Of a stretch of 43,617 bases of DNA, positions 4,370 through 43,308 are shown in pieces; the stretch's first letter is position 1; each line of letters begins with the position of its first letter. Under the pieces are notes generated by a model. The model was given only the letters and a program-made list of their open reading frames with translations. It did no database searches and was not told where the DNA came from. Source of the DNA: Spirochaetae bacterium HGW-Spirochaetae-3 (GTDB taxonomy: Bacteria > Spirochaetota > Spirochaetia > Treponematales > UBA12059); NCBI GenBank assembly GCA_002839315.1, contig PGXV01000008.1, positions 1 through 43,617 of the forward strand, read 5' to 3'. The position numbers were made by a program, and so were the translations under genes.

Positions 4370-4407
4370 GGGCCCGATAGCCCAGGCTTACGGGAAAGAC
4401 ACTACGC

Positions 4408-4438: not shown

Positions 4439-4458
4439 ATGTACCCGGGCGTTCCCGG

Positions 4459-5004: not shown

Positions 5005-5127
5005 GTAGTATCTCCTGCTCGCCATACGGTAGCAAAATATCGCGGTTTCGTCTCCTGTCCGCCCGCAGCCGACGTATTATCGTCACAAAAACCGCTATGC
5101 GCAGTCTAACGAGGCATGGAGGTCTCT

Positions 5128-5469: not shown

Positions 5470-5490
5470 GCGTATACGACGGCCGGGGGT

Positions 5491-6807: not shown

Positions 6808-6919
6808 GCCGACTCCTCGCGCCGGGAGTATATCATGCCGCAGCCCACGGTACGCGGGCCTCTTGGATATACTCGGACTGTCCCTTTCCGGCGCAGTCGG
6901 AGCGAAGTAGTATTTCTCT

Positions 6920-8221
6920 ATGAGCGAAAAGCCGAGACTATCCCCGCTACGACTCCTCAAGCGTTCCATGGCCCCCTACCTCGGCCTTCCGCGAAGCGTC
7001 TATACGCTGTTCGTCGCGACGGTCGTCAACGGGGCCGGCATCTTCGTATTCCCCTTCATGGCGCTGATACTGACGAGGCGCTTCGGGTTATCGGAGAAGG
7101 AGACCGGCGACATCGTGTTCTTGACGACGGTAGCCTATGTTCCCGGGACGCTGCTCGGGGGCCGGCTCGCGGACCGCTTCGGCCGCAAGCGGGTTCAGAT
7201 GATTTCGCAGTTCCTCTGCGGCGCCCTGTTCATACCCTGCGGGTTCCTTAACGACCCGTACCTGATAGCGGGATTCATCATAGCCTCGGTATTCTTCGAT
7301 GGGGTCACCGATCCGGCGCGCACGGCGATGAGCATGGACGTGACGACCCCCGAGAACAGGCAGGGAGCGTTCAGCCTCATATACCTCGGCCACAACCTGG
7401 GCTTCGCCATAGGCCAGATGATAGCGGGGTTCCTGTTCGCGTCGGCGCCGTCGTGGATGTTCTGGGGCAACGCCATAGCCGTAGGGGCCTCGCTGCTGCT
7501 CGTCGGGCTGTTCCTGCCCGAGTCCAGGCCGAGCGCCGAGGAAGAGAAGGCGAGCCTCGAGACAGACTCGGCCGAGAAGGCGCACGAGGGCAATCTATGG
7601 TCGGCGCTTCGTTCCAGGCCTATACTGCTCGTCTTCGCCGTCCTGACGACCTTCTACGGCTTCTCGTACGCCCAGCACCGATTCTCGATGCCGTTGCAGG
7701 CCATGAACCTGTTCGGCGATTCGGGAGCCAAGCTCTACGGCTTCATGATGACGCTGAACGCGGTCTGCGTGATCGCGTTCACGACGCCGATAGTAGCCTT
7801 CGCCAAGCGCTTCAGGCCTATATCCAACGTCGCGTTCGCCGGCGTTCTGTATTCGATCGGATTCGGCGTCCTCGCGTTCGCGCGGTCTCCATGGCTGTTC
7901 TTCGCGTCGACGTTCGTCTGGAGCCTCGGCGAGATCGTCCAGGCGACGAACGAGAGCGTATTCGTATCCAACCATACGCCGATGTCGCACAGAGGCCGCT
8001 TCAACGCGGTGTTGCCGCTGATTTCAGGGCTTGGATTCTCGTTCTCGACGCCTATCGCCGGGCGCATCACCGAGCGCTGGGGGATTCCGACGGTCTGGTT
8101 CGTCGTCGCGGCGTCGGCCGGGGTAGCGGCGCTGGGCCTATGGACGCTGGGCCGCTACGAGAACGGGGGAAAGCGGCGCGCGGACGGTTCCGAGGCGGGC
8201 ATCGACGAGGCAAGCGCCTAG
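6920..8221 (+). CDS. Major facilitator superfamily transporter
   Basis: A 433-aa permease with about 12 predicted helices in two sets of six. The MFS motif A lies after helix 2 (GGRLADRFGRKR, about residues 74-85). A charged cytoplasmic loop near residues 198-220 (EEEKASLETDSAEKAHEG) joins the halves. The YLGHNLGFAIGQMIAG segment resembles the drug-efflux (DHA1-like) branch, so a multidrug or metabolite exporter is likely, with unknown substrate. No ribosome site precedes the ATG. Instead TAGTAT ends six bases upstream, which suggests a leaderless message. It is divergent from the VOC-sigma gene, which could regulate it. The stop overlaps the convergent HD gene by 4 bp. Confidence 0.9.
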   Translation: MSEKPRLSPLRLLKRSMAPYLGLPRSVYTLFVATVVNGAGIFVFPFMALILTRRFGLSEKETGDIVFLTTVAYVPGTLLGGRLADRFGRKRVQMISQFLCGALFIPCGFLNDPYLIAGFIIASVFFDGVTDPARTAMSMDVTTPENRQGAFSLIYLGHNLGFAIGQMIAGFLFASAPSWMFWGNAIAVGASLLLVGLFLPESRPSAEEEKASLETDSAEKAHEGNLWSALRSRPILLVFAVLTTFYGFSYAQHRFSMPLQAMNLFGDSGAKLYGFMMTLNAVCVIAFTTPIVAFAKRFRPISNVAFAGVLYSIGFGVLAFARSPWLFFASTFVWSLGEIVQATNESVFVSNHTPMSHRGRFNAVLPLISGLGFSFSTPIAGRITERWGIPTVWFVVAASAGVAALGLWTLGRYENGGKRRADGSEAGIDEASA

Positions 8222-13745: not shown

Positions 13746-13774
13746 AAGATAGCACACTCGAAGCTCCGTGACAA
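13746..13774 (-). promoter_or_regulatory. Promoter of the cNMP-binding/radical SAM operon
   Basis: The minus strand has TTGTCA (13774-13769), a 17-bp spacer and TATCTT (13751-13746). The predicted start point is only a few bases from the ATG at 13736. Its -35 box overlaps the -35 box of the divergent promoter on the other strand. Confidence 0.45.
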
Positions 13775-13796
13775 TGATCCGATTTTCTCGTATAGT
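13768..13796 (+). promoter_or_regulatory. Promoter of the sensor diguanylate cyclase
   Basis: GTGACA (13768-13773), a 17-bp spacer and TATAGT (13791-13796). The -10 box ends seven bases before the ATG at 13804, which has no ribosome site, so the message is probably leaderless. The -35 box shares five bases with the divergent promoter. Confidence 0.5.
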
Positions 13797-13803
13797 TATC
13801 GCG

Positions 13804-15201
13804 ATGCGATATAAACTGACGATGCAGACCGAAGCCTCGAAAGTTCGCCGAGTATATTACTACATCAGCCTCGTCCTCGTCGTATTCGTCTTCATCGTAT
13901 TCGCGAGCTCGCACTTCGCCGCCCTCAAGCGCCAAGAGGATGAGACCGTCGCTCGGCTCGAGGCGACCGTCCTCAATACTACCAAGGCGTACCTGAAGGA
14001 CGCGGTAGACAGGACCATATCCGAGATCGACCTCGAGCGCCGCCTCGTAAGGGAAGAGATGGGCGTAACGCCCGGGGACGCGGAAGCCGAGCGACGGGCG
14101 GATGAGATCGTACGCTCGCGGATGATCGTGAGGATACGAGAGACACGGCTCAAGGATAACGGATACCTTTGGGTCAACGAGGTCGTCGACTTCGCGGGCG
14201 GCCCCCGCTACGCCCGGCGCCTCGTGCACGGGTTCCTTCCCGAGACCGAGGGCATGATGCTATCGACCGAGGTCATTGAAAACGGCTCCAATCCGTACCT
14301 GGCGGAACTGGAAGGCGTCGTCAGGGACGGCGAGACATACACCTCGTATTACTTCGCCAAGCCCGGAGAGCAGATCCCGTCCCCCAAGCTAAGCTATGCC
14401 CGGCTATACCCCGACTTCTCGTGGATAGTTGCGACGGGCGCGTATCTGGACGACCTGGACAAGGTCGTGGCGATAGAGAGGAAGCTGGCCGAGGCGAACC
14501 ACAACGAGCGGGCCGCCTCGAGCGTGTTCAGCCTGCTCCTCGCGCTTCTCTCCGTGGTCGTCCTCGTCATAGTCGTGGATCAGGTCACGTCGAAGACGAT
14601 CGCGGCCAGCTATAAGCGTATACTCGCGACCGAGAAGGCGCTACGGGAAGAGAAGCACAAGGTAGAAGAGGCCTATTCCCTTATGAAGGAACTCGCCGAG
14701 CGGGACGAGCTGACCGGGCTCCGTAACAGGCGATCGGGCATGAACAGGCTCATGATAGAGGCCGCGAGGGCGAATCGCTCGGCTTCTCCGTTCTGCGTCG
14801 CGATAGGGGATATAGACCTATTCAAGGCCTTCAACGATACGTACGGGCATGGTAGCGGGGATAAGGTCCTCAAGAAAGCCGCGGCGACGATGGAAAACAA
14901 GCTACGGCTCGAGGATATGGCCGCGCGCTGGGGCGGCGAGGAATTCCTGCTGCTTCTTTCCGGTGACGACCTGTCCGCCGCGATGGAGGCGACCGATCGT
15001 ATAAGGCTGGCGGTATCGACCGAGTACCTAGAAGCGAAGGGCGCCAAGATCCGTATATCAATGACATTCGGCGTAGCCGAATACGTCAAGGACGAGCGGC
15101 CGGAGGACTTGATAGCGAGGGCCGACGCGGCCATGTATAGAGGAAAGGCGGCCGGCCGCGACGTCGTCGTCGCGGCCGAGCCGCCCATGCCGACGTCATG
15201 A
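13804..15201 (+). CDS. Membrane sensor diguanylate cyclase (Cache-GGDEF)
   Basis: A 465-aa protein. A first membrane helix lies at about residues 18-36. A periplasmic Cache-type sensor domain follows (about 40-225: RDNGYLWVNE-like block DNGYLWVNEVVDFAGG and YPDFSWIVATGAYLDD). A second helix is at about 240-262, a short coiled linker at about 268-300, then GGDEF at about 303-460. The active site RWGGEEFLLLL is intact (GGEEF, residues 377-381), with DELTGLRNRRS and GDIDLFKAFNDTYGH also conserved, so c-di-GMP synthesis is expected. No inhibitory RxxD site stands out. The ATG at 13804 is preferred because a promoter ends seven bases upstream. ATG 13822 and GTG 13768 are possible. It overlaps the convergent CD3324 gene by 6 bp. 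Confidence 0.88.
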   Translation: MRYKLTMQTEASKVRRVYYYISLVLVVFVFIVFASSHFAALKRQEDETVARLEATVLNTTKAYLKDAVDRTISEIDLERRLVREEMGVTPGDAEAERRADEIVRSRMIVRIRETRLKDNGYLWVNEVVDFAGGPRYARRLVHGFLPETEGMMLSTEVIENGSNPYLAELEGVVRDGETYTSYYFAKPGEQIPSPKLSYARLYPDFSWIVATGAYLDDLDKVVAIERKLAEANHNERAASSVFSLLLALLSVVVLVIVVDQVTSKTIAASYKRILATEKALREEKHKVEEAYSLMKELAERDELTGLRNRRSGMNRLMIEAARANRSASPFCVAIGDIDLFKAFNDTYGHGSGDKVLKKAAATMENKLRLEDMAARWGGEEFLLLLSGDDLSAAMEATDRIRLAVSTEYLEAKGAKIRISMTFGVAEYVKDERPEDLIARADAAMYRGKAAGRDVVVAAEPPMPTS

Positions 15202-29836: not shown

Positions 29837-30622
29837 ATGAAACCGAGAACGATCGCGATCGCCACGCTCGCCGTCCTGTTCGCCGCGAAGGCTACCGCCG
29901 CCTACGGGCAGGGGCGATTCCGCAACATAAGTTCTGTCGAATTCGACTATTACAGCGACGAGCGCTACGGCCTGGTCTGGGAGGACGTGTTCATCAGCCC
30001 GCTGCCGTCGGGGTTCTACCTCCTCACCGCGGCCGAGGGCACCAATACCAGTTTCTCCGACGCGACCGGCGCCCGCCTCGGGCTGGCGTTCGACCTGCCC
30101 GGGGACTTCTACGGCGAGGGCTCCTACACCCTCGAATACGACTGGGGCGAGGAGAGCCTCCTGCATACGGCGCTCCTCTCCGCGACCTACGAGTCGGGGT
30201 CGGCGATGGCCGGCTTGTCCCTGACGGGAGAGTTCACCGATTCGAGCGCGGGAGGGATCGTATCCCCTTCGCTACGGTACGCCCTGATGCCCAGGCTCGC
30301 CATCGGGACGACGGTGTTCATGGCCTTCCACCACTACGTCCCGGACGGTAACTACTTCAACTTCGCGATGCTCGGAACCGGCGAGTACGCCCTGGCGCCG
30401 AAGATATGGGCATCGCTCGGGGGTACCTTCAGCACGGTCTACGAGCCGGAGAACCAGTTCGAGAAATGGTCCGTCCTCGGCGGGATCACCGTAAGGCCGA
30501 CGGCCGCCGTATCGGTCAAGTCCCAGGTCGAATACACCAACGCGATGCGCGCGGAGGTCAATCCCCACGAGATCGTATCCATGCTGCTCGTGCTGGACAT
30601 CAAGTTACGCCGCGGTGAATGA
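29837..30622 (+). CDS. Exported protein, probable outer-membrane beta-barrel
   Basis: A 261-aa protein with a clear signal peptide (about residues 1-22, MKPRTIAIATLAVLFAAKATA, cleavage after Ala-x-Ala). The rest alternates polar and aromatic/hydrophobic residues (GFYLLTAAEGTNTSF, SYTLEYDW, YALAPKIWASLGGTFS), as in transmembrane beta-strands. The last residues, MLLVLDIKLRRGE, are not a classic C-terminal Phe signature, so barrel assembly by BAM is uncertain. I do not recognise a family. Similar small exported proteins are frequent in spirochaetes. It is monocistronic, between the aminopeptidase and the partner-switch operon. Confidence 0.7.
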   Translation: MKPRTIAIATLAVLFAAKATAAYGQGRFRNISSVEFDYYSDERYGLVWEDVFISPLPSGFYLLTAAEGTNTSFSDATGARLGLAFDLPGDFYGEGSYTLEYDWGEESLLHTALLSATYESGSAMAGLSLTGEFTDSSAGGIVSPSLRYALMPRLAIGTTVFMAFHHYVPDGNYFNFAMLGTGEYALAPKIWASLGGTFSTVYEPENQFEKWSVLGGITVRPTAAVSVKSQVEYTNAMRAEVNPHEIVSMLLVLDIKLRRGE

Positions 30623-30749
30623 GCGGCGCCGCGGCGGAACCGAGGCTCCGGAATGACGCTATTTAATGACAGCGCTTCTACTCCCCGTATAGTATACTGG
30701 TAACGGCCGCGGGGCCCAGGCCGGCCCCATCCTTCGTACGGGAGGTACC

Positions 30750-31082
30750 ATGACCGCAGAGACGATAAGCGGCGCGCTCGTCATGACGCCGGGGATCAAG
30801 CATCTCGACACCCTGAGCGCCAGGGAATTCTCGGTAGAATACGGCCCGGCCGCCGCCGGGTCGGAAATCGTCATACTTGACTTGAAGCTCGTGCAGTTCG
30901 TAGACAGCACGGGCCTCGGAGCCATCCTCGATCTCGTCCGGGACACCATAGCCCGAGACGCGAGGATAGCCATATGCGGCGCCCAGCCGTCGGTCAAGGT
31001 ACTGTTCAGGATGGTCCAGCTCGCCAAGCTCGTGACGATATTCGATACGCGGGATATGGCCCTGGCCTGGGCGGGTAGCTGA
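30750..31082 (+). CDS. STAS-domain anti-sigma factor antagonist
   Basis: A 110-aa protein made of one STAS domain, the fold of SpoIIAA/RsbV. The phosphorylatable serine lies in QFVDSTGLGAILDLV (Ser-52), with the DS/TGLG pattern intact. In such switches the unphosphorylated form captures a kinase/anti-sigma partner, and phosphorylation frees it. The GGAGG-type site GGGAGGTACC precedes the ATG. It is the first gene of the operon with the phosphatase/kinase and the HEAT-glycosyltransferase. TATAGTATACT near 30688-30698 may be its -10 box. No good -35 box was found. Confidence 0.9.
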   Translation: MTAETISGALVMTPGIKHLDTLSAREFSVEYGPAAAGSEIVILDLKLVQFVDSTGLGAILDLVRDTIARDARIAICGAQPSVKVLFRMVQLAKLVTIFDTRDMALAWAGS

Positions 31083-31095
31083 TGCCGTCGGTACC

Positions 31096-32763
31096 GTGAC
31101 TCTATCCGCGATCATCCTTCCGGCCGTAGCCGGCGCGTCGCTGGCGCTCCTGTGCATGACGGCCGTCCGCTTCCCGCGCCGCGGATCCGTCCTGCCCCTG
31201 GACGATCCGGGATTCCGGGGGTTCGCCGGATCACTCGCGGTGACCATAATCGTTATCACGGCGGACCTCGGACGAGTCCTCTACGCCAGCCCCGGTTTTC
31301 GCGCCGTATTCGGGGCGGACCCCTCCGAGGTCGATTTCCGGGAACTGAAGGACCGCGTCCACGAGGAAGACGCGGAGAGCCTCGAATCCGCGCTGAGATC
31401 CGGCGGCGAGTCACCCTTCGCTATCGAATTCCGCTTACTCAGCGGCGGCGAGACCCACTGGATACACATGAGGGGCTTCCCCGTGCCGGGCCGCCGGAAG
31501 GACGCCCGTATCGCCCTGTGGCTGGAGGACAGGTCGATACGCAAGGGCGAGGAGCTGGCGCTCGCGCAGGCGAGGGACTACGACGTCGCCATCGGCGCCC
31601 GTATCCAGCGGGCGCTCCTCCTCGGGGAGCCGGAGCGCGAGTATTCCACGTTCGAACTCGCTTCCATGACCCTGCCCTCGCAGAAGATCGACGGCGACTT
31701 CATCGACTTCTTCGATTGCGGCGGCGAGATACTCGATCTCATGATCGGCGACGTGATGGGCAAGGGCATCCCGGCGGCGCTGACCGGCGCCGCGGCCAGG
31801 AACGCCTTCGCACGCGCCCGCATGTCGCAGCATGAAGAGCCGGGGGAGGCGCTGCTCCCGGTCAAGCGCATCGTCGAGGCCGCGGAGAAGCGCATGGCGG
31901 GCAAGCTCATGGAGGTGAGGACGTTCTTCACCCTGGTGTACGGACGGATAGACGGGAACGCCGGACTCTTCCGCTTCGTCGACTGCGGGCACACCAGCGT
32001 CATCCATTACGAGAAGAGGAGCGGGCGATGCTGGAGGCTCAAGGGCGCAAACGCGCCGATGGGTTTCCTGCCCGAGCAGGACTACGTCGAATACGCCGTA
32101 CCCATCGACCGGGGCGACCTGCTGTTCCTCTATTCCGACGGGATCACCGAGGCGACGGACTCCGAGGGCGAGCAGTTCGGAGAAGGCAGGCTGCTCAAGC
32201 TGATACGCTCCAGCGCGGGACTCGGCGCGTCCGAGCTACTCGAGAAGATCAAGCAGATAACGTTCAGCTACGCGGCCGGGAAATTCAGCGACGACGTCAC
32301 CGGCATCTCTATCAGAATGCTCGCGAAGCCCCGGAACCTCGGCGCCGCGTCGCGTACGTTCCCGCAATCCCTCGATTCCCTGCACGCGATCAGGGAATAC
32401 TTCGCCCGCTGCATAGACGCGAGGCTCTCCGCGTCCATCTCTGTGGAGACGAGGGAAGCCGTGCTCATAGCGATAGGGGAAGCCGCGTCTAATATATTCA
32501 AGCACAATACGCCGGACGAGGATCGGACCTGCGCCGCCGCCTTCAGGATGACGGATTCCTGGGCCTCCTTCAGCCTGTACTACCGCGGCGTCGATTACGA
32601 TTGGCAGGAATGGCACGTCCCGAGCGTCGAGAATTTCCAGACGAGCGGCTACGGGCTCTACCTGATCGGAGAGTCTATGGATTCAGTGACCGTCTCGGCG
32701 GGCGACGACGGCTATATTCGCCTCTGCATGCTGCTCTACCTGCCCGCGGGACGCCGAGCATGA
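31096..32763 (+). CDS. PAS-PP2C (SpoIIE/RsbU-like) phosphatase fused to HATPase kinase domain
   Basis: A 555-aa protein. An N-terminal membrane helix is at about residues 1-21. A PAS-type domain spans about 50-150 (ADLGRVLYASPGFRAVFG, ETHWIHMRGF). A PP2C phosphatase domain spans about 170-415 with its metal ligands: QKIDGDFIDFFD, LMIGDVMGKGIPAAL, YSDGITEATDSEG and KFSDDVTGISI. A GHKL-type ATPase domain spans about 420-555, with the N box EAASNIFKHNTPDE and the G box TSGYGLYLIGESM. One protein thus carries both the phosphatase and the kinase/anti-sigma parts of a partner switch. The start is a GTG at 31096, 13 bp after the STAS stop. No strong ribosome site is present, so translation is probably coupled. 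Confidence 0.9.
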   Translation: MTLSAIILPAVAGASLALLCMTAVRFPRRGSVLPLDDPGFRGFAGSLAVTIIVITADLGRVLYASPGFRAVFGADPSEVDFRELKDRVHEEDAESLESALRSGGESPFAIEFRLLSGGETHWIHMRGFPVPGRRKDARIALWLEDRSIRKGEELALAQARDYDVAIGARIQRALLLGEPEREYSTFELASMTLPSQKIDGDFIDFFDCGGEILDLMIGDVMGKGIPAALTGAAARNAFARARMSQHEEPGEALLPVKRIVEAAEKRMAGKLMEVRTFFTLVYGRIDGNAGLFRFVDCGHTSVIHYEKRSGRCWRLKGANAPMGFLPEQDYVEYAVPIDRGDLLFLYSDGITEATDSEGEQFGEGRLLKLIRSSAGLGASELLEKIKQITFSYAAGKFSDDVTGISIRMLAKPRNLGAASRTFPQSLDSLHAIREYFARCIDARLSASISVETREAVLIAIGEAASNIFKHNTPDEDRTCAAAFRMTDSWASFSLYYRGVDYDWQEWHVPSVENFQTSGYGLYLIGESMDSVTVSAGDDGYIRLCMLLYLPAGRRA

Positions 32764-34439
32764 AAGGCATACGCGATCTCGGCGAAGGCGTGTTCCGCAT
32801 CGACGCTACCGGGCTGACGCATCCGTATCCACGCTACGCGTACCTCGTGCTGGAGGGCGAACGCGGCGCGCTCGTAGATCCGGGACCGCTGGAGGATTTC
32901 CCTTCGACCCTCGCTATCCTCCGGACGGTCCTGCCCCTCGAGCGCGTATCGCTCATCGTGCTCACCGGAGAGACGCCTGACGCCTGCTCGAGCCTGCTTG
33001 CGCTGAGACGGGAGGGCTTCGACGGAATAGTCCTGGCCCATCGGAGGGCGGAAGCGCTCGCCCTTTCGTACGGCGAGGTTCCATTCAAGGCTATAGAGTC
33101 CGGGGACGAATCGATAGCGCTAGGGGGAGGCAGGACCCTGCGGCTCGTCAACGTACCGGGAATCCCGACCGCGGGTTCGCTCTTCTGCTTCGACGAACGG
33201 TCGGGCAGCCTGTTTACCGGGAAGCTGTTCGGCTCGGTCGGAGCGGAAGGAAGCGCGGAGGACGAGGAAACCCCCGGACGGCTCGAGTCCTTCCACGACC
33301 TCGTGTTCCCCCGCCTGGGCGACAGGGCGGATATCGGAGAGATCCTCCGGTCGCTGAAGCCGTTACGGGCGCTTCCCCGCAACGGCCCCCCGGTGGAAAG
33401 CCGGCTACCGTTCGCGGTATCGATGCTCGCGAAGGCCGACGCCGGCGGGAGAGACCTCCTGAGCGAGGTCGCCAGGCTCAAGGCCGAGAACCTCGAGCTG
33501 CAGAAATCCATCATCCAGGCGAGCGACGACCAGCTCAAGGATCCCGTGACCGGATTCTACAACGAGGTGTTCTTCGAGGAGTACATCGACTCCCTGCTCC
33601 CGCGAGAAGAAGGATCGATCCTGCCCGAAGACTCGGTGGCCTTCATACGGCTGGACAGGATCCAACGCCTGAACCAGCGCTTCGGAGCCAAGGCCGGCGA
33701 TTCGACGCTGAAGGGGCTGGGACGATTGCTCCTCGAGCATAAGCCGCCGGAAGCGATCTTCTTCCGCATGAACGGCCCCCTGTTCGCGTGCTACCTCCAG
33801 GGTACCGACAAGGCGAAGGCGGTCGCGTTCGCCGGCGAGCTCAAGGGCCTGGTCGAGGACTCGGATGGCTTCGTCGACAAGATCACCGTTTCCAGCGCCA
33901 TCGTCGAGTTCACCGAGATCGGCAGCGATCGCGTCGATTCGGGGCGGCTCCACAGCGGTTTATTGAAAGTGGGGAAAGAACGCCTGCGTTTGCTCGACAA
34001 GCTCGGCCCCGGCTCGATCTGCGCCGATTCCGAGATCACGCTGCGGCGGAGCAGCGGCACCGTCCTGCTCATAGAGAACAACGCCTTCGAGGCCGACCTC
34101 CTGAGGCGGGTCCTCGAGAGGCATGGATTCGAGACGCACGTCGTTACGCGCGGAAGCGAGGCCCTGATGCAGGCGGACCTCTACCGGCCCGAGGTGATCG
34201 TATCGGAGATATTCATCCCGCAGATGGACGGCTTCCAGATACGCCAGCGGCTGATGGCGTCCACGGACCTCAGGAACGTACCGTTCATCCTCATATCCCG
34301 GGACAAGAGCGAGTCGTCCGTCCAGAGGGCGCAGAGCCTGGGCATCCGGCACTTCTTCAGGAAGCCCTTCCTGGCGGGAGAGCTGGCCGGTATCATCAAG
34401 CTGCTTATAAGCGATCCCGCGGCGGAACGCCGCCCATGA
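32760..34439 (+). CDS. Pseudo-enzyme signalling protein: metallo-beta-lactamase-like, GGDEF-like and receiver-like domains
   Basis: A 559-aa protein with three recognisable but altered domains. Residues about 1-225 look like an oxygen-sensing flavodiiron-type metallo-beta-lactamase fold, but the H-x-E-x-D-H metal motif has become LTGETPDAC. The later His residues are gone too (NVPGIPTAGS, LFTGKLFGS). Residues about 260-420 are GGDEF-like (DPVTGFYNEVFFEEY) without the GGDEF/GGEEF signature. Residues about 432-553 are a receiver-like domain whose phospho-accepting Asp is replaced by Glu-483 (VIVSEIFIPQMDGF). A coiled coil (about 235-258) links the first two. It should act as a scaffold or constitutive output, not an enzyme. 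ATG overlaps the previous stop by 4 bp, so it is coupled. Confidence 0.85.
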   Translation: MKGIRDLGEGVFRIDATGLTHPYPRYAYLVLEGERGALVDPGPLEDFPSTLAILRTVLPLERVSLIVLTGETPDACSSLLALRREGFDGIVLAHRRAEALALSYGEVPFKAIESGDESIALGGGRTLRLVNVPGIPTAGSLFCFDERSGSLFTGKLFGSVGAEGSAEDEETPGRLESFHDLVFPRLGDRADIGEILRSLKPLRALPRNGPPVESRLPFAVSMLAKADAGGRDLLSEVARLKAENLELQKSIIQASDDQLKDPVTGFYNEVFFEEYIDSLLPREEGSILPEDSVAFIRLDRIQRLNQRFGAKAGDSTLKGLGRLLLEHKPPEAIFFRMNGPLFACYLQGTDKAKAVAFAGELKGLVEDSDGFVDKITVSSAIVEFTEIGSDRVDSGRLHSGLLKVGKERLRLLDKLGPGSICADSEITLRRSSGTVLLIENNAFEADLLRRVLERHGFETHVVTRGSEALMQADLYRPEVIVSEIFIPQMDGFQIRQRLMASTDLRNVPFILISRDKSESSVQRAQSLGIRHFFRKPFLAGELAGIIKLLISDPAAERRP

Positions 34440-37282
34440 TTATCCCGCTGGCAGTATTCGGCTTCTTCCTGGCCGCCAACGTCGTCGCGCTCCTGAGCCT
34501 GTTCGCCAACAAGCATCGGGGGCGAACATCCTTCTTAAACGCCCAGAGAATACGAGGGGCCCTCTCAGACGCCGTCCTCGACGGCGACTTCGGGGGGCTC
34601 GAACGGCTACTCCGGAAAAACCCCGAGGAAGCCCTCATGCTGTGGAGGGATCTCAGGACGGCCATAACCTTCAGCGCGGCGGAGATAGAGCCCATCCAGG
34701 AATTATTCCGCTCGACGGGCATAGAGAGGATGATCTTGCGACGGCTCCGTTCCGGAAACGCGCGTAAGCGTTACGGGGCGACCCACATGATCCGGCCGCT
34801 CGTGTCGCCATCGAACATCGGCTCCGTCATCGAGGCGCTACGGCGGGAGAAGAAGGAATTCATACGCCTCTCGCTCGTGAAGGATCTTCTCGCGTCAGGC
34901 GACAAGACCGGCTTCGACGGCATCGCGGAGAGCCTCGACGGCTGCAGCATGGGCTATTTCAAGTCCGTGCGCGCCATGATGGCCTCCTCGGGGCACCGAT
35001 TCATAGGCTGGGCGCATAATAACCTGGGCACGGACGATCCCGGGCGCGTCATCCTCATACTATCAGGCGCGATGACGCACGTGACCGTATGGCTCAAGGA
35101 TTACGTACAGACTCACCTTGGACACGACGATCCCATGGTCAGGAGCACCGCGATAGAGACGGCCGAGGCTATATACCCCGATCTGCTCGCGGAGCAGGCC
35201 GACGACCCCGATACGGATATCGTCACGCGGCGCGTCTCGATACGCTGCCTCGCCCAGACGGCCTATCCGCTCGACCTCGACCGCTTCGTGGGGTTCTTCT
35301 CGGACCCCACGGTCCAGGACGTGGCGACCGCGGCCCTTACCGGCTACGTCTCCCGCTATCCCGAGGAGGTCGAACGGATAGTCTCGCGCCTCCGCGGAAT
35401 CGGAGACCCCGCTACGCGACGCTCGATAGCGTCCTGCCTCGCGGGCAGGCTCCCGTTCCTCCTCGTCTCCGGCGACGACCCGGCGCGATGCCGGCCGATC
35501 GTCGAGGGCATGCTGGAGGCGGGCAAGAGCGCGGGACTGATAGCCTTCCTCAACTACAATCGCGACCCCGATATAGAGGACGAGATCCTCGGCTGGATCG
35601 AGCCGTACCTCGGGACGGGATCCGCCTTCCGCAAGGAATGCGCGGCGTACCTGGAACCGAGGCTACGCGCGGAACTCGGCATAGAGCCCTACGAGACACC
35701 CAAGAGCAGCCGGAAGATCCCCCTCAGCAAGTCGAACAGGATAGCCCTGGCGGCTATCCTCGGCCTGATCATCCTCTTCCCGATAGCGGCCATCGCGGCC
35801 GGACTGTCCGGCGCCACCATCGGGAGGAGCTGGATCGTGGCCCGGGAGGCGTTCCGCCGGTTTACCTGGGGTTTCGGATTCTACGCCGTCGCGCTTAACT
35901 GCATATACCTCGCGCTCATCTACCTCGCCAGAATCAACCTGCTGTCGCAGGCGGAATACTGGAAGCTCCTCGACAGGGAGTATCTCTTCACTCCGGGCCT
36001 GTTACCATCCATATCCATCCTTGCCCCCGCCTATAACGAGGCGAAGACCGTCGTACAGAGCGTCCAGTCGCTCCTGACCCTCGCGTACCCCGACTTCCAG
36101 GTCATCGTGATCAATGACGGTTCCTCCGACGACACCATGGGCGTCCTCTCCGAGGAGTTCGCGCTCGAACGGATAGACCCGACGACGAGCGGAACCCTGC
36201 CCACCGCCCCCGTGCGCGGCGTATACCGCTCGCCAGGGTATGCGAAGCTGCTCGTCATCGACAAGGAGAACGGCGGCAAGGCGGACGCGCTCAACGCCGG
36301 GATAGACCTCGCGTCCTGCGAATACATCTGCAGCATAGACGCCGACTCCCTACTGGAGCCGGACGCGCTCCTGCGGATGACGGCGCAGGTCCTGACGTCG
36401 GACGTAGAGACCGTCGCCGTCGGCGGCAACATCCTGCCGGTCAACGGCTGCGCCGTCGAGAGGGGCATGCTCCAATCCATCGCCCTGCCGGAGAACAGGT
36501 ACGCCAGGCTACAGACCATCGAGTATCTGCGTTCGTTCATCGCGGGTCGCCTCGGCTGGTCCCAGTTGAACGCGCTGCTCATAATATCCGGCGCCTTCGG
36601 GCTTTTCCGCCGCGACCGGGTCCTCGAGATCGGCGGCTACATGACCGGACGGGGAGAATTCAACCGCGATACGGTAGGGGAGGATATGGAGCTCGTCGTA
36701 CGCCTCGTAAAACGGATGGGCGAGGCTCGAAAGAAGTACCGCGTGCGGTACGCGTCGAGCGCCAACTGCTGGACCGAGGTCCCCGAGGACCTCGGGAGCC
36801 TGTTCAAGCAACGGGATCGGTGGCACCGCGGCCTCATCGAGATCATGACGTGGCACAGGGAGATGCTGTTCAATCCCAAGTACGGGACGGCGGGGCTCCT
36901 GGCCTTTCCGTATTTCCTGATCTTCGAGGTAATAGGACCGTTCTACGAATTCGCCGGATATCCGCTCCTGTTCATCGGTTTCGCTACGGGCGCCCTCCAC
37001 TGGCACATCTTCGCGATCATGTTCAGCGCCGTCCTCCTGTTCGGGCTCCTCATATCCACCGTATCGCTCATGCTGTCCGAGCGGGGCGTCGTCTACTTCC
37101 GCCGCCGGGAGCTGGCCGCGCTGCTCGGCTATTCCGTTATCGAGAACTTCGGCTTCAGGCAGCTGATGGGATGGGTACGCGTATTCTCCTCCGTGAGCAT
37201 GCTCGTCAAGAACAAGGGCTGGCAGAAACTGGAAAGGAAGGGTTTCTCGTCCGGACCGGCGGCGGCCGCCGCCAAGCCGTGA
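34436..37282 (+). CDS. HEAT-repeat protein fused to family 2 glycosyltransferase (polysaccharide synthase)
   Basis: A 948-aa membrane protein. A first helix (about residues 1-21) anchors it. Residues about 35-405 are alpha-helical repeats of HEAT type (for example LERLLRKNPEEALML and FDGIAESLDGCSMGYF). Two helices follow (about 435-460 and 475-498). The glycosyltransferase-2 domain (about 510-800) has SILAPAYNEAKTV, VIVINDGSSDDTM, the DxD-type SIDADSLLEPDAL, VGEDMELVVRL (catalytic Asp) and KQRDRWHRG (QxxRW). Four C-terminal helices (about 815-925) suit an export channel. The set resembles PgaC/IcaA and cellulose-synthase-like enzymes that polymerise a UDP-sugar and move the chain out. The HEAT part may host a regulator. 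ATG overlaps the previous stop by 4 bp. Confidence 0.88.
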   Translation: MIIPLAVFGFFLAANVVALLSLFANKHRGRTSFLNAQRIRGALSDAVLDGDFGGLERLLRKNPEEALMLWRDLRTAITFSAAEIEPIQELFRSTGIERMILRRLRSGNARKRYGATHMIRPLVSPSNIGSVIEALRREKKEFIRLSLVKDLLASGDKTGFDGIAESLDGCSMGYFKSVRAMMASSGHRFIGWAHNNLGTDDPGRVILILSGAMTHVTVWLKDYVQTHLGHDDPMVRSTAIETAEAIYPDLLAEQADDPDTDIVTRRVSIRCLAQTAYPLDLDRFVGFFSDPTVQDVATAALTGYVSRYPEEVERIVSRLRGIGDPATRRSIASCLAGRLPFLLVSGDDPARCRPIVEGMLEAGKSAGLIAFLNYNRDPDIEDEILGWIEPYLGTGSAFRKECAAYLEPRLRAELGIEPYETPKSSRKIPLSKSNRIALAAILGLIILFPIAAIAAGLSGATIGRSWIVAREAFRRFTWGFGFYAVALNCIYLALIYLARINLLSQAEYWKLLDREYLFTPGLLPSISILAPAYNEAKTVVQSVQSLLTLAYPDFQVIVINDGSSDDTMGVLSEEFALERIDPTTSGTLPTAPVRGVYRSPGYAKLLVIDKENGGKADALNAGIDLASCEYICSIDADSLLEPDALLRMTAQVLTSDVETVAVGGNILPVNGCAVERGMLQSIALPENRYARLQTIEYLRSFIAGRLGWSQLNALLIISGAFGLFRRDRVLEIGGYMTGRGEFNRDTVGEDMELVVRLVKRMGEARKKYRVRYASSANCWTEVPEDLGSLFKQRDRWHRGLIEIMTWHREMLFNPKYGTAGLLAFPYFLIFEVIGPFYEFAGYPLLFIGFATGALHWHIFAIMFSAVLLFGLLISTVSLMLSERGVVYFRRRELAALLGYSVIENFGFRQLMGWVRVFSSVSMLVKNKGWQKLERKGFSSGPAAAAAKP

Positions 37283-37289
37283 GGTAGCG

Positions 37290-39200
37290 CTACTCCAGCG
37301 GAAACTCGGTCGTCCCGGCCGGCACGTCCAGTACGTAAAGCCCCCCGACGCGACGAGTCCCGGACCCGGCCGCGGGAACCGCGTTATCCGGAAGCCTCAG
37401 CCCCAGCCCGAGGACCGGCGACGAGGAAGATAGCCGCGCGTAGCGGACTCCGTCCCGCGAGACGATATCGGCCTCCACCAGGTCGCGCGCCGTCCACCAT
37501 TCCCCGAACTCGGCGAGCGTCCCCCACCACGCGCGGTCCCGGAGGCGGGAGGTGAATTCCCGCAGGAACCGCAGTTTCTCGTCGGTCACGTTCGGATGGA
37601 TCAGCACGACGAAGAGCCCGCCGTACCTCGACAGGCGCTCGGCCAGCTCGACGGCCTCGTCGACGCGGCCGTCCATGGGGGGATCCTTCTCGTCCTCGAC
37701 CGTTACGGGGAATTCGAAGATAGCCGTCTCGGCGCCGTACAGCCTGTCATAGGCCTGCCGGTACGGCAGGTGGGTCATGACGTCGTTGGCCGCCACGGTG
37801 GACGAATAGCGGTAGCCGGAGGATTCGAGCGATTGCGGGAGAGAGAACGGATTCGCGAGGAAGCCCGGGCGGAACGACGTCACCGTCGAACGTGATTGCC
37901 GTTCTATCAGGTATTTGCTTACCCTCAGCTCGCCCATGATCGTCGCGTCCCTCGTATAGAAGAACTCTATGATGCGGGGCTGGTAGTCCGGATACGCTTC
38001 CCTGTAGGTTCCCTGCGGGAGGCGGGCGAACATATCGGAATGGCATACCGAATGGCTACCCAGTTCCATGCCCAGGCCTTCCAGCGTCGCCAACAGTCGC
38101 GGAGTGCGTTCGTCGAAGAACACCTCGTCGAAATAGTCCTTGAAGTACTTGGTCTGCAGGAAGTACGTCGCGCCGTATCCCATGCTACGCTCGTATTCGG
38201 CATAGGACACGCTATTGGCGAGCGAACCGGCGTAATCGACGTCGTGGGATACGATTATCGAAAGCGGGTAGCCGTCGGGCGCGGGATGGAGCGACAGCGC
38301 GTCGCTCTCATAGGCCCGGTAGACCTCGCCTATGAACCGGAGCACCGTATCGACCGACGGCTCGAAGCCGTTCACGTAGGTCCGGTTGGCTTCTTCGTCA
38401 CGATTGCCCTGCGCCGTCAATATATATCGCCCGACGTCGAACCCGAACGCTATCGCCGTTCCGGCGCCGCTATCCCGCCGCACGATAGCCGCGCTCCCGT
38501 CATTATAGCGGGCCAGTATCTCCCGAGGCTCCCGTAAGGCCCAGGTCCACATCCGCGACCGCGGCCGATCCGGGTTGCCGAGCCTGATCGTCCGTTCCTC
38601 GGGATATATAAAACCGGAGGCGAACGGCGAGTCGGCGTATTCGAGTTCGAAACGCTTCCTGCTCCGGCTCGCGGAGCCGAAGCCGAAGATCCCGGCGAAG
38701 CCGCGGGCGGGAACGGCTGATACGGCCGACATGAGGGCCCCGCCGCGGACGACGTGCGTCTCAAGCCTCCCGAGGCTTTCTTCGCTGACCGTGCCCGCCC
38801 GATACCCCGGATAGACGAGGATGACGTCGTGGCCTAGCGCCGCGTCGAGGGAATCGGTGATCGTGAACGGAATGCCGAACGACTTGAGGCCATGGACCAA
38901 CCCGAGCCAGGGCGAATCGGGATCCGTCAGCAGTATCGCGAGCCGCGACGGCGATCCGGTACCGTATACCCGCCAATCCGCCCGAACGGCCCTCGGTCTC
39001 GGCGATTCGGCCAAGGGACCCTCGACATCGGGAAGCGCGACGTATTCTTCCTGGGCCCGCCTGACCAGGGGGGATTCGGGGGCTAAGCCCTTGAGCCCCG
39101 GCACTTCGTAGCTCCCGCTCGCTCCCGAGCCGCAAGCGGCGACGAGCGAGCAGGCGCACGCGACCTTTAATACCGAGGACCAGCTCGACGACCGACTCAT
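37290..39200 (-). CDS. Polysaccharide deacetylase (NodB-like) lipoprotein
   Basis: A 636-aa lipoprotein. The lipobox LVAAC places the lipidated Cys near residue 22. The first 280 residues form a separate domain rich in beta structure. A carbohydrate esterase 4 (NodB) domain starts near residue 312, with motif 1 as SHDVDYAGS (TFDDG in classical members), motif 2 as SHSVCHSDMF (H-x3-H) and motif 3 as SFRPGFLANPF. EFPVTVEDE and VLIHPNV fit the later motifs. It probably removes acetyl groups from an extracellular amino-sugar polymer. The ATG at 39200 lies seven bases after TATACT, without ribosome site. It converges with the glycosyltransferase gene (7-bp gap). That suits PNAG-like polymer processing, as inference. 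Confidence 0.83.
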   Translation of the reverse strand: MSRSSSWSSVLKVACACSLVAACGSGASGSYEVPGLKGLAPESPLVRRAQEEYVALPDVEGPLAESPRPRAVRADWRVYGTGSPSRLAILLTDPDSPWLGLVHGLKSFGIPFTITDSLDAALGHDVILVYPGYRAGTVSEESLGRLETHVVRGGALMSAVSAVPARGFAGIFGFGSASRSRKRFELEYADSPFASGFIYPEERTIRLGNPDRPRSRMWTWALREPREILARYNDGSAAIVRRDSGAGTAIAFGFDVGRYILTAQGNRDEEANRTYVNGFEPSVDTVLRFIGEVYRAYESDALSLHPAPDGYPLSIIVSHDVDYAGSLANSVSYAEYERSMGYGATYFLQTKYFKDYFDEVFFDERTPRLLATLEGLGMELGSHSVCHSDMFARLPQGTYREAYPDYQPRIIEFFYTRDATIMGELRVSKYLIERQSRSTVTSFRPGFLANPFSLPQSLESSGYRYSSTVAANDVMTHLPYRQAYDRLYGAETAIFEFPVTVEDEKDPPMDGRVDEAVELAERLSRYGGLFVVLIHPNVTDEKLRFLREFTSRLRDRAWWGTLAEFGEWWTARDLVEADIVSRDGVRYARLSSSSPVLGLGLRLPDNAVPAAGSGTRRVGGLYVLDVPAGTTEFPLE

Positions 39201-39250
39201 ACCGCTCAGTATACTCTCCGGCGAGGCTTTTCGCGAATCCCCCGGATGCG

Positions 39251-41377
39251 TCAGTCCTCGCGGCAGCCAGCCTCGGCCGCGTGCCGCTCTACCGAGCTCA
39301 AGTAGCGCAGGGTCGCGCAATCGCCGGGTAGCTCGGCCAGTACCCGGGCGAACAGGGTTCGCGCGTCGTCGTAGCGCTTCCGGTAATACGCGTCCACTCC
39401 CCGCTCGAAGGCGGCGCGGGCGCGGTCCTTGCTGGAACGAGACTCGGGCGGATCTCCCTCGTAGATATCGAATACCGATACCGGATCGGCCTTTCCCTTG
39501 ACCTTGACCTTGCCGATGAAGCGCATGCGGAACAGCGTCGGGTCGGGGAGGTCGGCGACGATGCGCTCGCTCGCCGCTATGCCGAGGCCGTACTCCTTCG
39601 ACACGCCTTCGAGCCGGCTCGTCACGTTGACCGCGTCGGAGACGACCGTACCGTCCATGCGCTGCGCCTCGCCTATGGTCCCGAGCATCAGGCGCCCCGC
39701 GTGGGCTCCTATGCCGACGCGTATGGCGGCCCGGCCGGAGGCCTCGAGCTCGATATTGTACGCCGCGACGCGCGCCTGTACGTCGAGCGCGCAGAGCAGC
39801 GCGGACTCCGCTCCGCCGGGGAACAGGGCCATGAAGCCGTCGCCCAGGTACTTGTCTATGAATCCGCCGTGGGCCCTGACCGCCGGCCCTACCCTGGCCA
39901 GGTACTCGTTGATATACGCGAACGTCTCTTCCGGCGTCGACGCCTCGGCGAGCGCGGAAAAGGAGCGCAGGTCGACGAACAGCATCGCCATCTCCTCGGC
40001 GCTCGAGTCGCCGAGCTCGATCTCCTCGAGGCTACTACGCTTCAGGAAGCCGAGGAACTGCCGGGGCACGAAGCGCTCAAGCGAGCGGTTCATCCTGACG
40101 AGGTCGCCGGACAGCGCCTCGGCCGTCGTGAACGCGACCGCGAAGCGCCTCGTGAGGATCAGCGAAAGCGCGAACAGGAAGCCGAGCATCCCCACCTGCA
40201 TGACGAACGCGCCTCGCAGCACGCCGGCCGATACGAGGATATCGTACACGGAGGCCGTGAATATCGCGATGAAGCCCAGGCCGAACAACCCGGCGCCGGG
40301 CCGCCCGCGGGCTATCGCCCGTACGATGGCCGCGGCCGTGCCTATCCCGACGACGATGGCCGCGCCCTGGTACCATACGAGTCCCAGCGACGAGAACCGC
40401 GTCGGCGCGACGAGCACGACCGCGGAATACGCGGCCGAGACGGCCCCGGCGACGATAGCCGCCCGTCGCGGGAACTCGTCGGGGAAGGTAGCCCCTACGA
40501 ACGCGGCGAACAGCGCGACCGCCGCGGTAAAGGTCAGGTATCCCAAGTCGTAGAGCAGGCGCCAGGAAGCGCCCGGAGCGAGGCTGAGGATGTAGTACTC
40601 GTCGTAGCATAGAACGCGGACGGCGAGTACCGCGCACAGGAGCCCGAACCACAAGGCAGCCTTCTCGCGGCGCCTGAACGCGTAGAGACCCAGATAATAG
40701 GCGCCCATCGCGCCTATCGCTCCCATCGCGAACAGCTCGTACGCTACCGCCCGTTCCCTGACGGCGGCGACGGCCTCGTAGTCTCCGAAGAGGAGGCCGG
40801 TACGGGTACCGCCCTGCCTGTCGGCGTAGTTAGACGCGTGTATGACTATATCGACGCTTCCGTCGGGGCCTGACTCGACCGGCGACACGGTAGATAGCCA
40901 GCCGGGCGATTCCAGTCCGGCCGTCTTGCCCGGGATCCCGTGCGATACGAGCGGGACGCCGTTCACGTAGACGAGCGCGGCGCTCAGGAACGACGACGCC
41001 TTTAGGCCGTAGCGCCGGCCCGGCTCGAGCCCCGTCAGCCTGAGCCTCCAGGTGCAGTATCCCACGGGGCCGACGCCGGGCAGTCCGTACGCGGTCCATT
41101 CCGACGGGAACGGCTCCAGCGCGTCGTACAACGGCGGCTCTCCCCGAGCGAAGGCGGCCGGGTCTACGAACCTGGCCCAATAGAATTCCCATATCCCGTC
41201 GAGGGCCACGGGACTACGGGGATCGAATCCGGACAGATCCGCCTTGCCGCCTTTGATCCCGCCGGTGATCCCGCCGGAGCCGGCCGCGAACCCTTCCGCC
41301 CTGACCATCGAGCACGATGCGGCGAGCGCGAGCACGGCCGCCATCGCTATCCTGGACGCTATTGTTTTTTCAAGCAT
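39251..41377 (-). CDS. 7TMR-DISM membrane sensor with class III adenylate/guanylate cyclase domain
   Basis: A 708-aa receptor. A signal sequence (about 1-27) leads to a periplasmic beta-sandwich ligand-binding domain (about 50-210, LDGIWEFYWARF, GYCTWRLRLTGLEPGRRYGL). Seven membrane helices follow (about 215-405). A class III cyclase domain spans about 440-640. Both metal-binding Asp residues are present (MLFVDLRSFSALAE and DKYLGDGFMALF), as is the DAVNVTSRLE segment with the transition-state Asn and Arg. The enzyme should make cAMP or cGMP. The substrate-choosing Lys and Asp were not resolved. A C-terminal tail (about 650-708) is TPR-like (FERGVDAYYRKRYDDARTLF). A promoter (TTGCCG-17-TATGCT) ends nine bases before the ATG. 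Confidence 0.88.
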   Translation of the reverse strand: MLEKTIASRIAMAAVLALAASCSMVRAEGFAAGSGGITGGIKGGKADLSGFDPRSPVALDGIWEFYWARFVDPAAFARGEPPLYDALEPFPSEWTAYGLPGVGPVGYCTWRLRLTGLEPGRRYGLKASSFLSAALVYVNGVPLVSHGIPGKTAGLESPGWLSTVSPVESGPDGSVDIVIHASNYADRQGGTRTGLLFGDYEAVAAVRERAVAYELFAMGAIGAMGAYYLGLYAFRRREKAALWFGLLCAVLAVRVLCYDEYYILSLAPGASWRLLYDLGYLTFTAAVALFAAFVGATFPDEFPRRAAIVAGAVSAAYSAVVLVAPTRFSSLGLVWYQGAAIVVGIGTAAAIVRAIARGRPGAGLFGLGFIAIFTASVYDILVSAGVLRGAFVMQVGMLGFLFALSLILTRRFAVAFTTAEALSGDLVRMNRSLERFVPRQFLGFLKRSSLEEIELGDSSAEEMAMLFVDLRSFSALAEASTPEETFAYINEYLARVGPAVRAHGGFIDKYLGDGFMALFPGGAESALLCALDVQARVAAYNIELEASGRAAIRVGIGAHAGRLMLGTIGEAQRMDGTVVSDAVNVTSRLEGVSKEYGLGIAASERIVADLPDPTLFRMRFIGKVKVKGKADPVSVFDIYEGDPPESRSSKDRARAAFERGVDAYYRKRYDDARTLFARVLAELPGDCATLRYLSSVERHAAEAGCRED

Positions 41378-41386
41378 TTCGTAAGG

Positions 41387-41415
41387 AGCATAGCGCGTAA
41401 CGGGAGGCGCGGCAA
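41387..41415 (-). promoter_or_regulatory. Promoter of the nucleotide cyclase gene
   Basis: The minus strand reads TTGCCG (41415-41410), a 17-bp spacer and TATGCT (41392-41387). The -10 box ends nine bases before the ATG at 41377, so the leader would be 2-3 nt at most. Confidence 0.5.
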
Positions 41416-41422
41416 CGTGGTA

Positions 41423-43228
41423 TCAGAGGTCCTGCACCTCGGTAGCGTCCTCGAAACGCTCGGTGATTTCGAGGAAATCGTCGATCCTGCTCAGCAGGAT
41501 ATCTACCAGGCGCGGCTCGAATGCGCCGCCCGATTCGGTCTTGAAGAGTTCCAGCACCTTGTCGAGCGGCCAGGCTTCCTTGTATACGCGCTTCGTGTAC
41601 AGCGCGTCGAAGACGTCGCATATCGATACGATGCGGCCGGAAAGGCTGATATCCGCCCCGGACTTGCCATGCGGGTATCCCTTTCCGTCCCATCGCTCGT
41701 GATGCTCGAGGGCGATGACCGAGGCGGCCCGTAGGAGGGGCCTCATCGACGAGCCGAGGATCTCGTTGCCGATGACGGTATGGCGCTTCATGATCTCCCG
41801 CTCTTCATCGGTCAGCCTGCCCGGCTTGGAGAGGATGGCGTCGGGAACGGCGATCTTGCCTACGTCGTGCATAGGCGCCGCCGCCGTTATCACGTCGACC
41901 TCCTCCTCTGAAAGACCGTAGGCCTGCGACAGCACCCTCGCGTACTCCCCGACGCGGACGACGTGGTAGGCCGTCTCTCGGCTGCGGCTCTCGACGACCT
42001 CCGACAGCGTCCACAGGATCTCCCGCTGGGTCTTGGCCATCTCGTCGTTGAGCTCTCGCAGGCGCTCCTCGGCGAGCGTCCGCTGCGCGACCTCCTGGCG
42101 TAGCGCCGTCGTGCGCTGGCGTACCCAGAATTCCAGCTCCTCGTTGGTAGCGGCCATATCGCGGGCGTCGCTCTTCTGCCCGGAGATGTCGTTGAACACG
42201 AGCAGCTTCCACGCGCCCGAGCGGTCCCTCGCGGAATTGGAGGCCACCGTAATGCGGTAGCTACGCCTGGGGACGCCCTCCCGGTCGGGCAGGTCGAGCT
42301 CGGTCTCCGCCTCGGGGAAGTCGAGCGCCGCGACGACCGACGAAGGCCAATCGGCGAACAGCGCCCGCGCGGACGCTCCCATCGGTTCGCCCGCTCCGGC
42401 GCCGAGCAGGGTCTTCGCGGCCGCGTTATAGTCGACGACGGTCTCGCCTTCGCCAAGGACGAATACCGGATCGAGGAGGGTATCCATCACCGCTCGCCTC
42501 GCCTTGGTCAGCGGCCCGACTATCCTCTCGCCGAACAGCCCGTAGACGAAGAGCGCGTCGCGTATCGACGTCCATATCGGCGACGTCCAGATGGAGCCCG
42601 AAGGCAGGCGGAAGGCGATGACGAGCAACGTCCCGGCCAACTGCACGCCGAATCCTGCCAGCAGCACGGGCGCGCCGTTCATCCGGTTCGCGCCTTCCTC
42701 GAACGCGTGCCTGGCGATAACGACGAGCGCGGCGATAAAAAGGCAATAGCCGTATAGGACCATGCCGTAGGCCAGCGCCGAAGGCTCGAAGACCAGGGGG
42801 GAAAACGGCAGGACCATCCGGCCGATCCGCGCGTACAGAGGCGCCGTGATACCGGCGATAGCCATGGCGGCTACTACGACGGCGATGGCCACGGGCGCGA
42901 CGAGGAGGGTCAGCAGAGTCGGCGAAGACCTATGGTCGCTCGGTTTGACGAATGACCGGGCGAACTGTACGTACAGGACCTGGACGGCGAGGCGGAGAGG
43001 CCGACCTATCGCGTTCCAGAACAGCTTCCGCTCTATCGAGGCGGAGAAGACCTCGAAGATAAACGCTATCGCCAGGATAGCTTCGAGCGCGACGAAGGCG
43101 ATGAAGAGACACACGTCGCGACGACGTCCGCAGGTGAAGAAGGCTCCGACGGCGAGGCCGACGGAAAAAACCGAGGGCGCGACGTAGGGAATAAGCCTGA
43201 CTATATCGGCCGGGATGTAACCTTGCAT
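41423..43228 (-). CDS. Membrane HD-GYP protein, probable c-di-GMP phosphodiesterase
   Basis: A 601-aa protein. Seven membrane helices in the N-terminal 225 residues resemble the 7TM module of some histidine kinases. A PAS-type domain (about 235-345) and a coiled coil (about 350-405) follow, and the HD-GYP domain fills about 405-590. The catalytic pair is in APMHDVGKIAVPD and the GYP signature in LEHHERWDGKGYPHGK, both intact, with the His of KRHTVIGNEIL between them. It should hydrolyse c-di-GMP to pGpG or GMP. This opposes the diguanylate cyclase at 13804. AAGGAT lies eight bases before the ATG at 43228. It is followed by the nucleotide cyclase and deacetylase genes on the same strand. Confidence 0.92.
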   Translation of the reverse strand: MQGYIPADIVRLIPYVAPSVFSVGLAVGAFFTCGRRRDVCLFIAFVALEAILAIAFIFEVFSASIERKLFWNAIGRPLRLAVQVLYVQFARSFVKPSDHRSSPTLLTLLVAPVAIAVVVAAMAIAGITAPLYARIGRMVLPFSPLVFEPSALAYGMVLYGYCLFIAALVVIARHAFEEGANRMNGAPVLLAGFGVQLAGTLLVIAFRLPSGSIWTSPIWTSIRDALFVYGLFGERIVGPLTKARRAVMDTLLDPVFVLGEGETVVDYNAAAKTLLGAGAGEPMGASARALFADWPSSVVAALDFPEAETELDLPDREGVPRRSYRITVASNSARDRSGAWKLLVFNDISGQKSDARDMAATNEELEFWVRQRTTALRQEVAQRTLAEERLRELNDEMAKTQREILWTLSEVVESRSRETAYHVVRVGEYARVLSQAYGLSEEEVDVITAAAPMHDVGKIAVPDAILSKPGRLTDEEREIMKRHTVIGNEILGSSMRPLLRAASVIALEHHERWDGKGYPHGKSGADISLSGRIVSICDVFDALYTKRVYKEAWPLDKVLELFKTESGGAFEPRLVDILLSRIDDFLEITERFEDATEVQDL

Positions 43229-43308
43229 ACGTTCTATCCTTAAGCTAATCCATACCGTCGACATTCGCAAGCATGGCCCGCTCTCCCCTTGGCTCCCCTT
43301 GGCTCCCG

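Follow-up and report, generated by a model that had tools for sequence, protein, structure and literature searches.

A STAS/PP2C pair attached to a conserved gene pair for a HEAT-GT2 synthase in spirochaetes: a candidate for polysaccharide synthesis gated by protein contact

We analysed a stretch of 43,617 nucleotides (the window; GenBank contig PGXV01000008.1, positions 1 to 43,617) from the 3.9-Mb genome of Spirochaetae bacterium HGW-Spirochaetae-3, in which four plus-strand genes encode a STAS-only protein, a PAS-PP2C-HATPase fusion, a multidomain protein with a degenerate GGDEF domain (gene 3) and a family 2 glycosyltransferase (GT2) with a HEAT domain (Table 1). This gene order, read in a preliminary description made from the DNA letters alone, is real and recurs beyond chance in about ten other loci of spirochaetes, to which the relatives of the window belong. 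The tight coupling by ATGA overlaps reported there holds for the joints between genes 2 and 3 and between genes 3 and 4, but not for STAS and PP2C, which are separated by a gap of 13 nucleotides. As also described, the block converges on a deacetylase-like gene, which lies approximately 7 nucleotides past the synthase stop. A promoter-like sequence, being a consensus match alone, precedes the STAS gene at 30666-30693.

Table 1. Genes of the block and its direct neighbours (positions in the window).
Feature	Position	Strand	Evidence
STAS-only protein, 110 aa	30750-31082	+	Pfam STAS E 1.9e-15
PAS - SpoIIE-type PP2C - HATPase_c_2 fusion, 555 aa, hydrophobic N-terminus, GTG start	31096-32763	+	Pfam SpoIIE E 1e-39, HATPase_c_2 E 6e-11, PAS_3 E 9e-8
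Gene 3: ODP-type metallo-beta-lactamase fold - coiled coil - degenerate GGDEF - receiver, 559 aa	32760-34439	+	Pfam ODP E 3.5e-17, Response_reg 7e-15, GGDEF 5e-11
HEAT-GT2 synthase, 948 aa	34436-37282	+	Pfam Glycos_transf_2 E 3e-19
Deacetylase-like secreted lipoprotein candidate	37290-39320	-	Polysacc_deac_1 E 0.0043; HDVD, HSVCH, RPGF motifs and lipobox LVAAC, by eye
Signal-peptide protein, possible outer-membrane beta-barrel, same-strand neighbour upstream of STAS	29837-30622	+	Position kept in loci L030, L032, L033, L127

The STAS protein carries Ser53 within a VDSTG motif of the phospho-acceptor type, and the alignment reveals DS(S/T)G or NSAG in all block members. The metal-binding Asp motifs of PP2C (DGDF, GDVMGKG, SDG and DD) are conserved across the aligned members as well, and the phosphatase is predicted to be catalytically intact. 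The fused HATPase keeps its N and G2 boxes, and its G1 box, DxGxG, is altered to [YF]xGxxYDW in every block member; because Tyr or Phe replaces the G1-box Asp in all of them, normal kinase activity of this domain is doubtful. Most other HATPases checked in the same genome retain this Asp.

Gene 3 had been called a triple pseudo-enzyme, which is correct by motif. It has G-T-D-P-K-N at the metal positions, where the intact set is H-D-D-H-D-H, so that five of six ligands are lost; the GGDEF position reads NGPLF, and Glu483 stands in place of the phospho-acceptor Asp of the receiver. As Glu is found there in 80 of 89 rows of the gene-3 family, the pseudo-receiver is a family trait; of 91 aligned rows, 90 have no RxxD I-site, the window's among them. 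By its motifs, gene 3 of the window has no working enzyme site. We ruled out a diguanylate cyclase or an I-site receptor of cyclic di-GMP (c-di-GMP) by NGPLF and the missing RxxD, and an active metal sensor in the window by the loss of the five ligands. The AlphaFold2 model of the single chain (predicted local distance difference test, pLDDT, 88) matched flavodiiron proteins and ODP (6r9n, 6qrq), the coiled-coil-GGDEF protein DgcB (6ttr) and SiaD of the SiaC-SiaD complex (7e6g) in Foldseek, and it shows a helix of approximately 30 residues (231-259) in the same place as the SiaD stalk before the GGDEF domain.

The synthase consists of a transmembrane (TM) helix, a cytoplasmic HEAT solenoid (approximately residues 55-413), further TM helices, a processive GT2 domain and C-terminal TM helices. 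DxD, TVGED and QRDRW do not vary among 50 homologues, and with DxD, (G)ED, QxxRW and TM helices present the protein is predicted to be a processive GT2 polysaccharide synthase with intact catalytic motifs. Its HEAT domain is weak in Pfam (E 4e-4, below the cut-off). The domain had nevertheless been recognised in the preliminary description, and this identification holds because the AlphaFold2 model shows HEAT-like helix pairs at 55-413 between TM helices with confidence (pLDDT mostly 80-95, overall 88) and because a separate HEAT gene of distant relatives is homologous to it. The synthase has no HEAT domain in L121-L124, four distant genomes of the phylum, and a membrane-anchored HEAT-type gene lies directly upstream (Pfam HEAT_2 E 7e-23 in L121, clearly passing the HEAT cut-off), the product of which is a collinear homologue of residues 24-371 of the window's synthase (hhalign probability 97.5%, E 7e-12). 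In these split loci (L121 5406-9618, L122 5979-10327, L123 and L124) receiver, TPR protein with possible barrel, HEAT protein and GT2 are separate genes, the receiver gene being present in three of the four and retaining its phospho-acceptor Asp in L121; a deacetylase homologue is found nearby in L121 and L122. The split genes support a putative signalling axis leading from the receiver via HEAT to GT2. The GT2 part of the model is nearest to hyaluronan and cellulose synthases, with TM-scores that are low over the full length, and the best NCBIfam model is PgaC_IcaA with 127.5 bits, under its equivalog cut-off of 422.3. The product is probably a chain resembling poly-N-acetylglucosamine (PNAG) or hyaluronan, and the likely output of the membrane enzyme is a sticky polysaccharide on the cell surface.

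Searching species genomes with the synthase yielded 80 loci, which belong to Spirochaetota, Clostridia, Acholeplasmatales, Chloroflexi, Trichococcus and metagenome-assembled genomes (MAGs) of the Fibrobacter type. Genomes of the window's phylum were added to these; gene calls in the relatives are mechanical open reading frames (ORFs), and most genomes are MAGs. Wherever a HEAT-GT2 locus has 700 or more nucleotides of upstream sequence, a gene-3 homologue lies directly upstream (88 of 88), some of these loci being the same genome via two collections. An overlap of 4 nucleotides is the most frequent spacing, the others being mostly gaps of a few nucleotides. At the level of gene order, gene 3 and HEAT-GT2 are shown to form an almost obligatory two-gene unit, which appears to be ancient and widespread, mostly in anaerobic bacteria. 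Gene 3 is reduced to coiled coil, GGDEF and receiver in L148, L155 and L073, where the lactamase domain is absent. The preliminary description suggested that the switch may target the synthase itself through its HEAT domain and named a wide occurrence of HEAT-GT2 without STAS/PP2C as evidence to the contrary. The co-occurrence survey revealed this very distribution, and, with gene 3 always adjacent, the HEAT domain belongs with gene 3 and not with STAS; STAS/PP2C as part of the core was ruled out for the same reason.

Approximately 45 loci carry an exported-looking companion of the gene 3/GT2 pair of approximately 1000 residues (e.g. L057 11172-14336), including L035, L128, L141 and L146 of the STAS-bearing clade. 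It has no Pfam or NCBIfam match and no convincing match in the PDB, and its resemblance to a TIM-barrel glycosidase was judged by eye only. A deacetylase was ruled out for this companion, as it does not resemble the deacetylase gene of the window. It was not found in the window's sub-clade, which has the deacetylase-like lipoprotein candidate and the possible barrel protein instead. Searches of the open-licence literature for ODP with GGDEF, HEAT with GT2 and degenerate GGDEF with oxygen returned no description of the gene 3/HEAT-GT2 pair. The two-gene core is amenable to experimental testing because it is present in culturable Acetobacterium, Sphaerochaeta, Trichococcus, Flexilinea and Marispirochaeta.

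All four genes occur together in the window, L030, L032, L033 (Candidatus Marispirochaeta associata), L035, L127, L128, L141, L146 and L150; L036 has STAS and no PP2C gene, L029 is cut before STAS, and L157, the contig of which ends early, was placed by its synthase. A synthase tree of 90 rows unites the STAS/PP2C loci in a single clade of 13 (Shimodaira-Hasegawa-like approximate likelihood ratio test, SH-aLRT, 99); it is a quick, unrooted maximum-likelihood tree in which some branches are long, that of L150 in particular. These loci span several spirochaete families, and synthase identity to the window is 32-51% in the more distant ones, with values falling to about 34-37% within the clade, so the coupling of STAS/PP2C with the synthase has been kept over deep divergence. 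The earlier proposal of a partner-switch pair coupled with a polysaccharide synthase is borne out in this respect, as the coupling is conserved across the clade. The state of the lactamase domain was scored in 75 loci. The domain of relatives (Acetobacterium, L057) is homologous to ODP, the oxygen-binding diiron sensor of Treponema denticola and Thermotoga (E 1.8e-29), and has the same HQDPD...H...D...PQHG ligands. All six are kept in 44 of 64 STAS-less relatives, no STAS locus being among the 44, and all ten scorable PP2C-bearing loci have lost several each. A shorter linker between lactamase and GGDEF was ruled out as a mark of the STAS clade, the lengths being mixed (51-163 with STAS, 39-171 without). 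Judged from the sequences, a STAS/phosphatase phosphorylation switch was apparently attached to a pre-existing machine of gene 3 and synthase in a group of uncultured spirochaetes.

We propose a model, its functional steps being derived from sequence and single-chain models, in which gene 3 would dock on the cytoplasmic HEAT platform and switch chain synthesis on or off, the contact path leading from receiver/GGDEF to HEAT and on to GT2. In the relatives, the lactamase domain with its diiron ligands probably supplies an oxygen, redox or iron input; in the window's clade this input would be dead and STAS would supply the input instead. The PAS-PP2C protein would dephosphorylate STAS, which would be re-phosphorylated by a kinase in trans or by an unusual activity of the fused HATPase, and the phosphorylation state of STAS would decide on its binding to gene 3, possibly at the coiled coil/GGDEF region. 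Published cases in which a STAS or STAS-like protein controls a GGDEF protein are HsbA-HsbD, BgrV-BgrR and SiaC-SiaD (PMC8457831), and SiaC binds the helical stalk before the GGDEF domain of SiaD, with phosphorylation of SiaC preventing binding (PMC8457831, PMC6482189). By analogy to SiaC and HsbA, an action of STAS on gene 3 has probably taken the place of the diiron input. The convergent lipoprotein may deacetylate the chain product. That the synthase is gated by protein contact and not by a second messenger, with STAS on gene 3 replacing the dead diiron input, is a tentative reading, to which we give slightly less than an even chance. More daring, and in our judgement rather likelier to fail than to hold, is the general form of it: a widespread synthase class, mostly of anaerobes, would be gated by a diiron oxygen/redox sensor in a dead GGDEF-receiver protein docked on HEAT, and in one spirochaete clade the sensor would have died and STAS/PP2C taken over the same contact.

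Several points weigh against the replacement of a diiron input by STAS. Ligands were also lost in 20 STAS-less loci (Acholeplasmatales, Rectinema-type, Trichococcus and others), and L036, having STAS and no PP2C, retains five of the six. As STAS marks a single clade and offers one independent pair, its association with ligand loss is suggestive only, and a statistical link was dropped for this reason. STAS/PP2C might also be a conventional partner switch merely sharing the operon and controlling transcription, e.g. of exopolysaccharide (EPS) genes, via sigma and anti-sigma elements elsewhere. The genome has 12 profile matches to sigma70_r2, 9 to STAS and 35 to HATPase_c_2, and two other STAS genes adjoin stand-alone HATPase_c_2 genes (C16, approximately 301.6-302.3 kb; C18, approximately 282.1-282.6 kb), these pairs being candidates for conventional partner switches. 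We consider this explanation improbable, however: consistent with the preliminary description, the operon encodes no sigma factor, and neither a sigma nor an anti-sigma domain was detected in it or in the 20 neighbour proteins scanned, a subset of the neighbouring ORFs; moreover, no member has retained the G1-box Asp in its fused HATPase, and the STAS/PP2C pair stays with gene 3 and synthase over deep divergence.

Within the operon, unphosphorylated STAS might bind the HEAT domain of the synthase directly, leaving gene 3 as a side branch or scaffold. We regard this as unlikely, and a direct STAS-HEAT contact as the less likely one, although about ten loci have all four genes side by side, HEAT solenoids are folds on which proteins dock and the model places a long solenoid beside the synthase. 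HEAT is found throughout the family and STAS in one clade only, and GGDEF proteins are among the non-sigma targets known for STAS-type switches. Since gene 3 is the constant partner and HEAT-GT2 is widespread without STAS, gene 3 is the likelier target of STAS. A role of gene 3 as c-di-GMP receptor of the PelD/PssE kind, activating the synthase and being modulated by STAS, would have a precedent in the degenerate GGDEF protein PssE, which activates the Listeria EPS synthase (PMC4125290), and enzymes of c-di-GMP are encoded nearby in the window. With the RxxD I-site, which defines this class, missing nearly throughout the gene-3 family, we judge such a role very unlikely. An action of STAS on gene 3 and of gene 3 on HEAT-GT2 would be the most economical explanation, drawing on the analogy to the published GGDEF-directed switches.

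The position of the deacetylase-like gene is kept in L029, L030, L032, L033, L127 and L157, i.e. in the window's sub-clade, and the L033 orthologue matches Polysacc_deac_1 with E 3.5e-8. L036 encodes an 800-residue polysaccharide deacetylase (4403-6802, minus strand, E 1e-9) divergent from STAS. The possible barrel protein upstream of STAS has no Pfam match and a weak porin match in one orthologue (E 0.02); membership of the YaiO or porin families was ruled out, no match being significant. From its conserved position it presumably belongs to the system, and the deacetylase-like lipoprotein candidate and this possible barrel fit a synthase-dependent exopolysaccharide. On the minus strand (37290-43270) the deacetylase-like gene overlaps a gene for a class III nucleotide cyclase with a 7TMR-DISM sensor (39251-41377), and a gene for an HD-GYP protein (41423-43270) is located beyond; the three are possibly one operon of second-messenger enzymes and deacetylase. 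A dCache-GGDEF protein (13768-15201, plus strand; GGDEF match E 9e-39) is likely an active diguanylate cyclase by sequence. Approximately 24 kb from the block, the same contig has a 492-residue ORF (5491-6969, minus strand) with a sigma70 region 2 match at 6064-6228.

If true, the proposed gating would offer a specific candidate for what a STAS partner switch acts on when its output is not a sigma factor. This question is open for SypA, HmpV and RbaV, as their targets are unknown (PMC8256260). The gating would also point to how anaerobes might tie oxygen or redox state to the synthesis of surface polysaccharides.

Comparison with known systems shows shared parts in other combinations. As in Rsb-type partner switches, the window has a STAS protein with a phospho-acceptor Ser and a PP2C (SpoIIE) with its Asp residues, but the G1-box Asp of the HATPase is replaced by Tyr or Phe in all block members. 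The likeness to the Syp system of Vibrio fischeri, drawn in the preliminary description, stands loosely, in that SypA-SypE also tie a STAS protein and a phosphatase/kinase regulator to polysaccharide formation. It fails in the details: SypE has a receiver flanked by kinase and phosphatase domains and a working kinase, whereas the PAS-PP2C-HATPase protein has no receiver and an altered ATP box, and the syp locus comprises 18 genes while the window encodes a synthase-dependent system. The diiron chemotaxis sensor ODP of Treponema denticola and Thermotoga (6qrq, 6qnm) is a homologue of the lactamase domain of gene 3, with identical ligands in many relatives, but it stands alone and acts on chemotaxis, whereas gene 3 has this domain fused to GGDEF and receiver beside a synthase and has lost the ligands in the window's clade. 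PgaABCD/IcaA resemble the locus in the top-scoring synthase model, in the presence of a deacetylase and in the TPR and possible barrel protein and deacetylase of deep relatives; they differ in that the window scores far under the cut-off, has a HEAT domain and a different regulator, and that no TPR porin was found at its locus. PssE/PelD-type EPS regulators likewise represent catalytically dead GGDEF proteins encoded with a synthase, gene 3 being distinguished from them by the missing RxxD I-site and the extra lactamase and receiver domains. In SiaABCD and HsbRAD of Pseudomonas and BgrV-BgrR of Sinorhizobium, phosphatase-reversed phosphorylation of a STAS or STAS-like protein controls a GGDEF protein with biofilm as the output; their GGDEF proteins are active cyclases working via c-di-GMP, whereas in the window the GGDEF domain is dead by motif and the next gene encodes the synthase.

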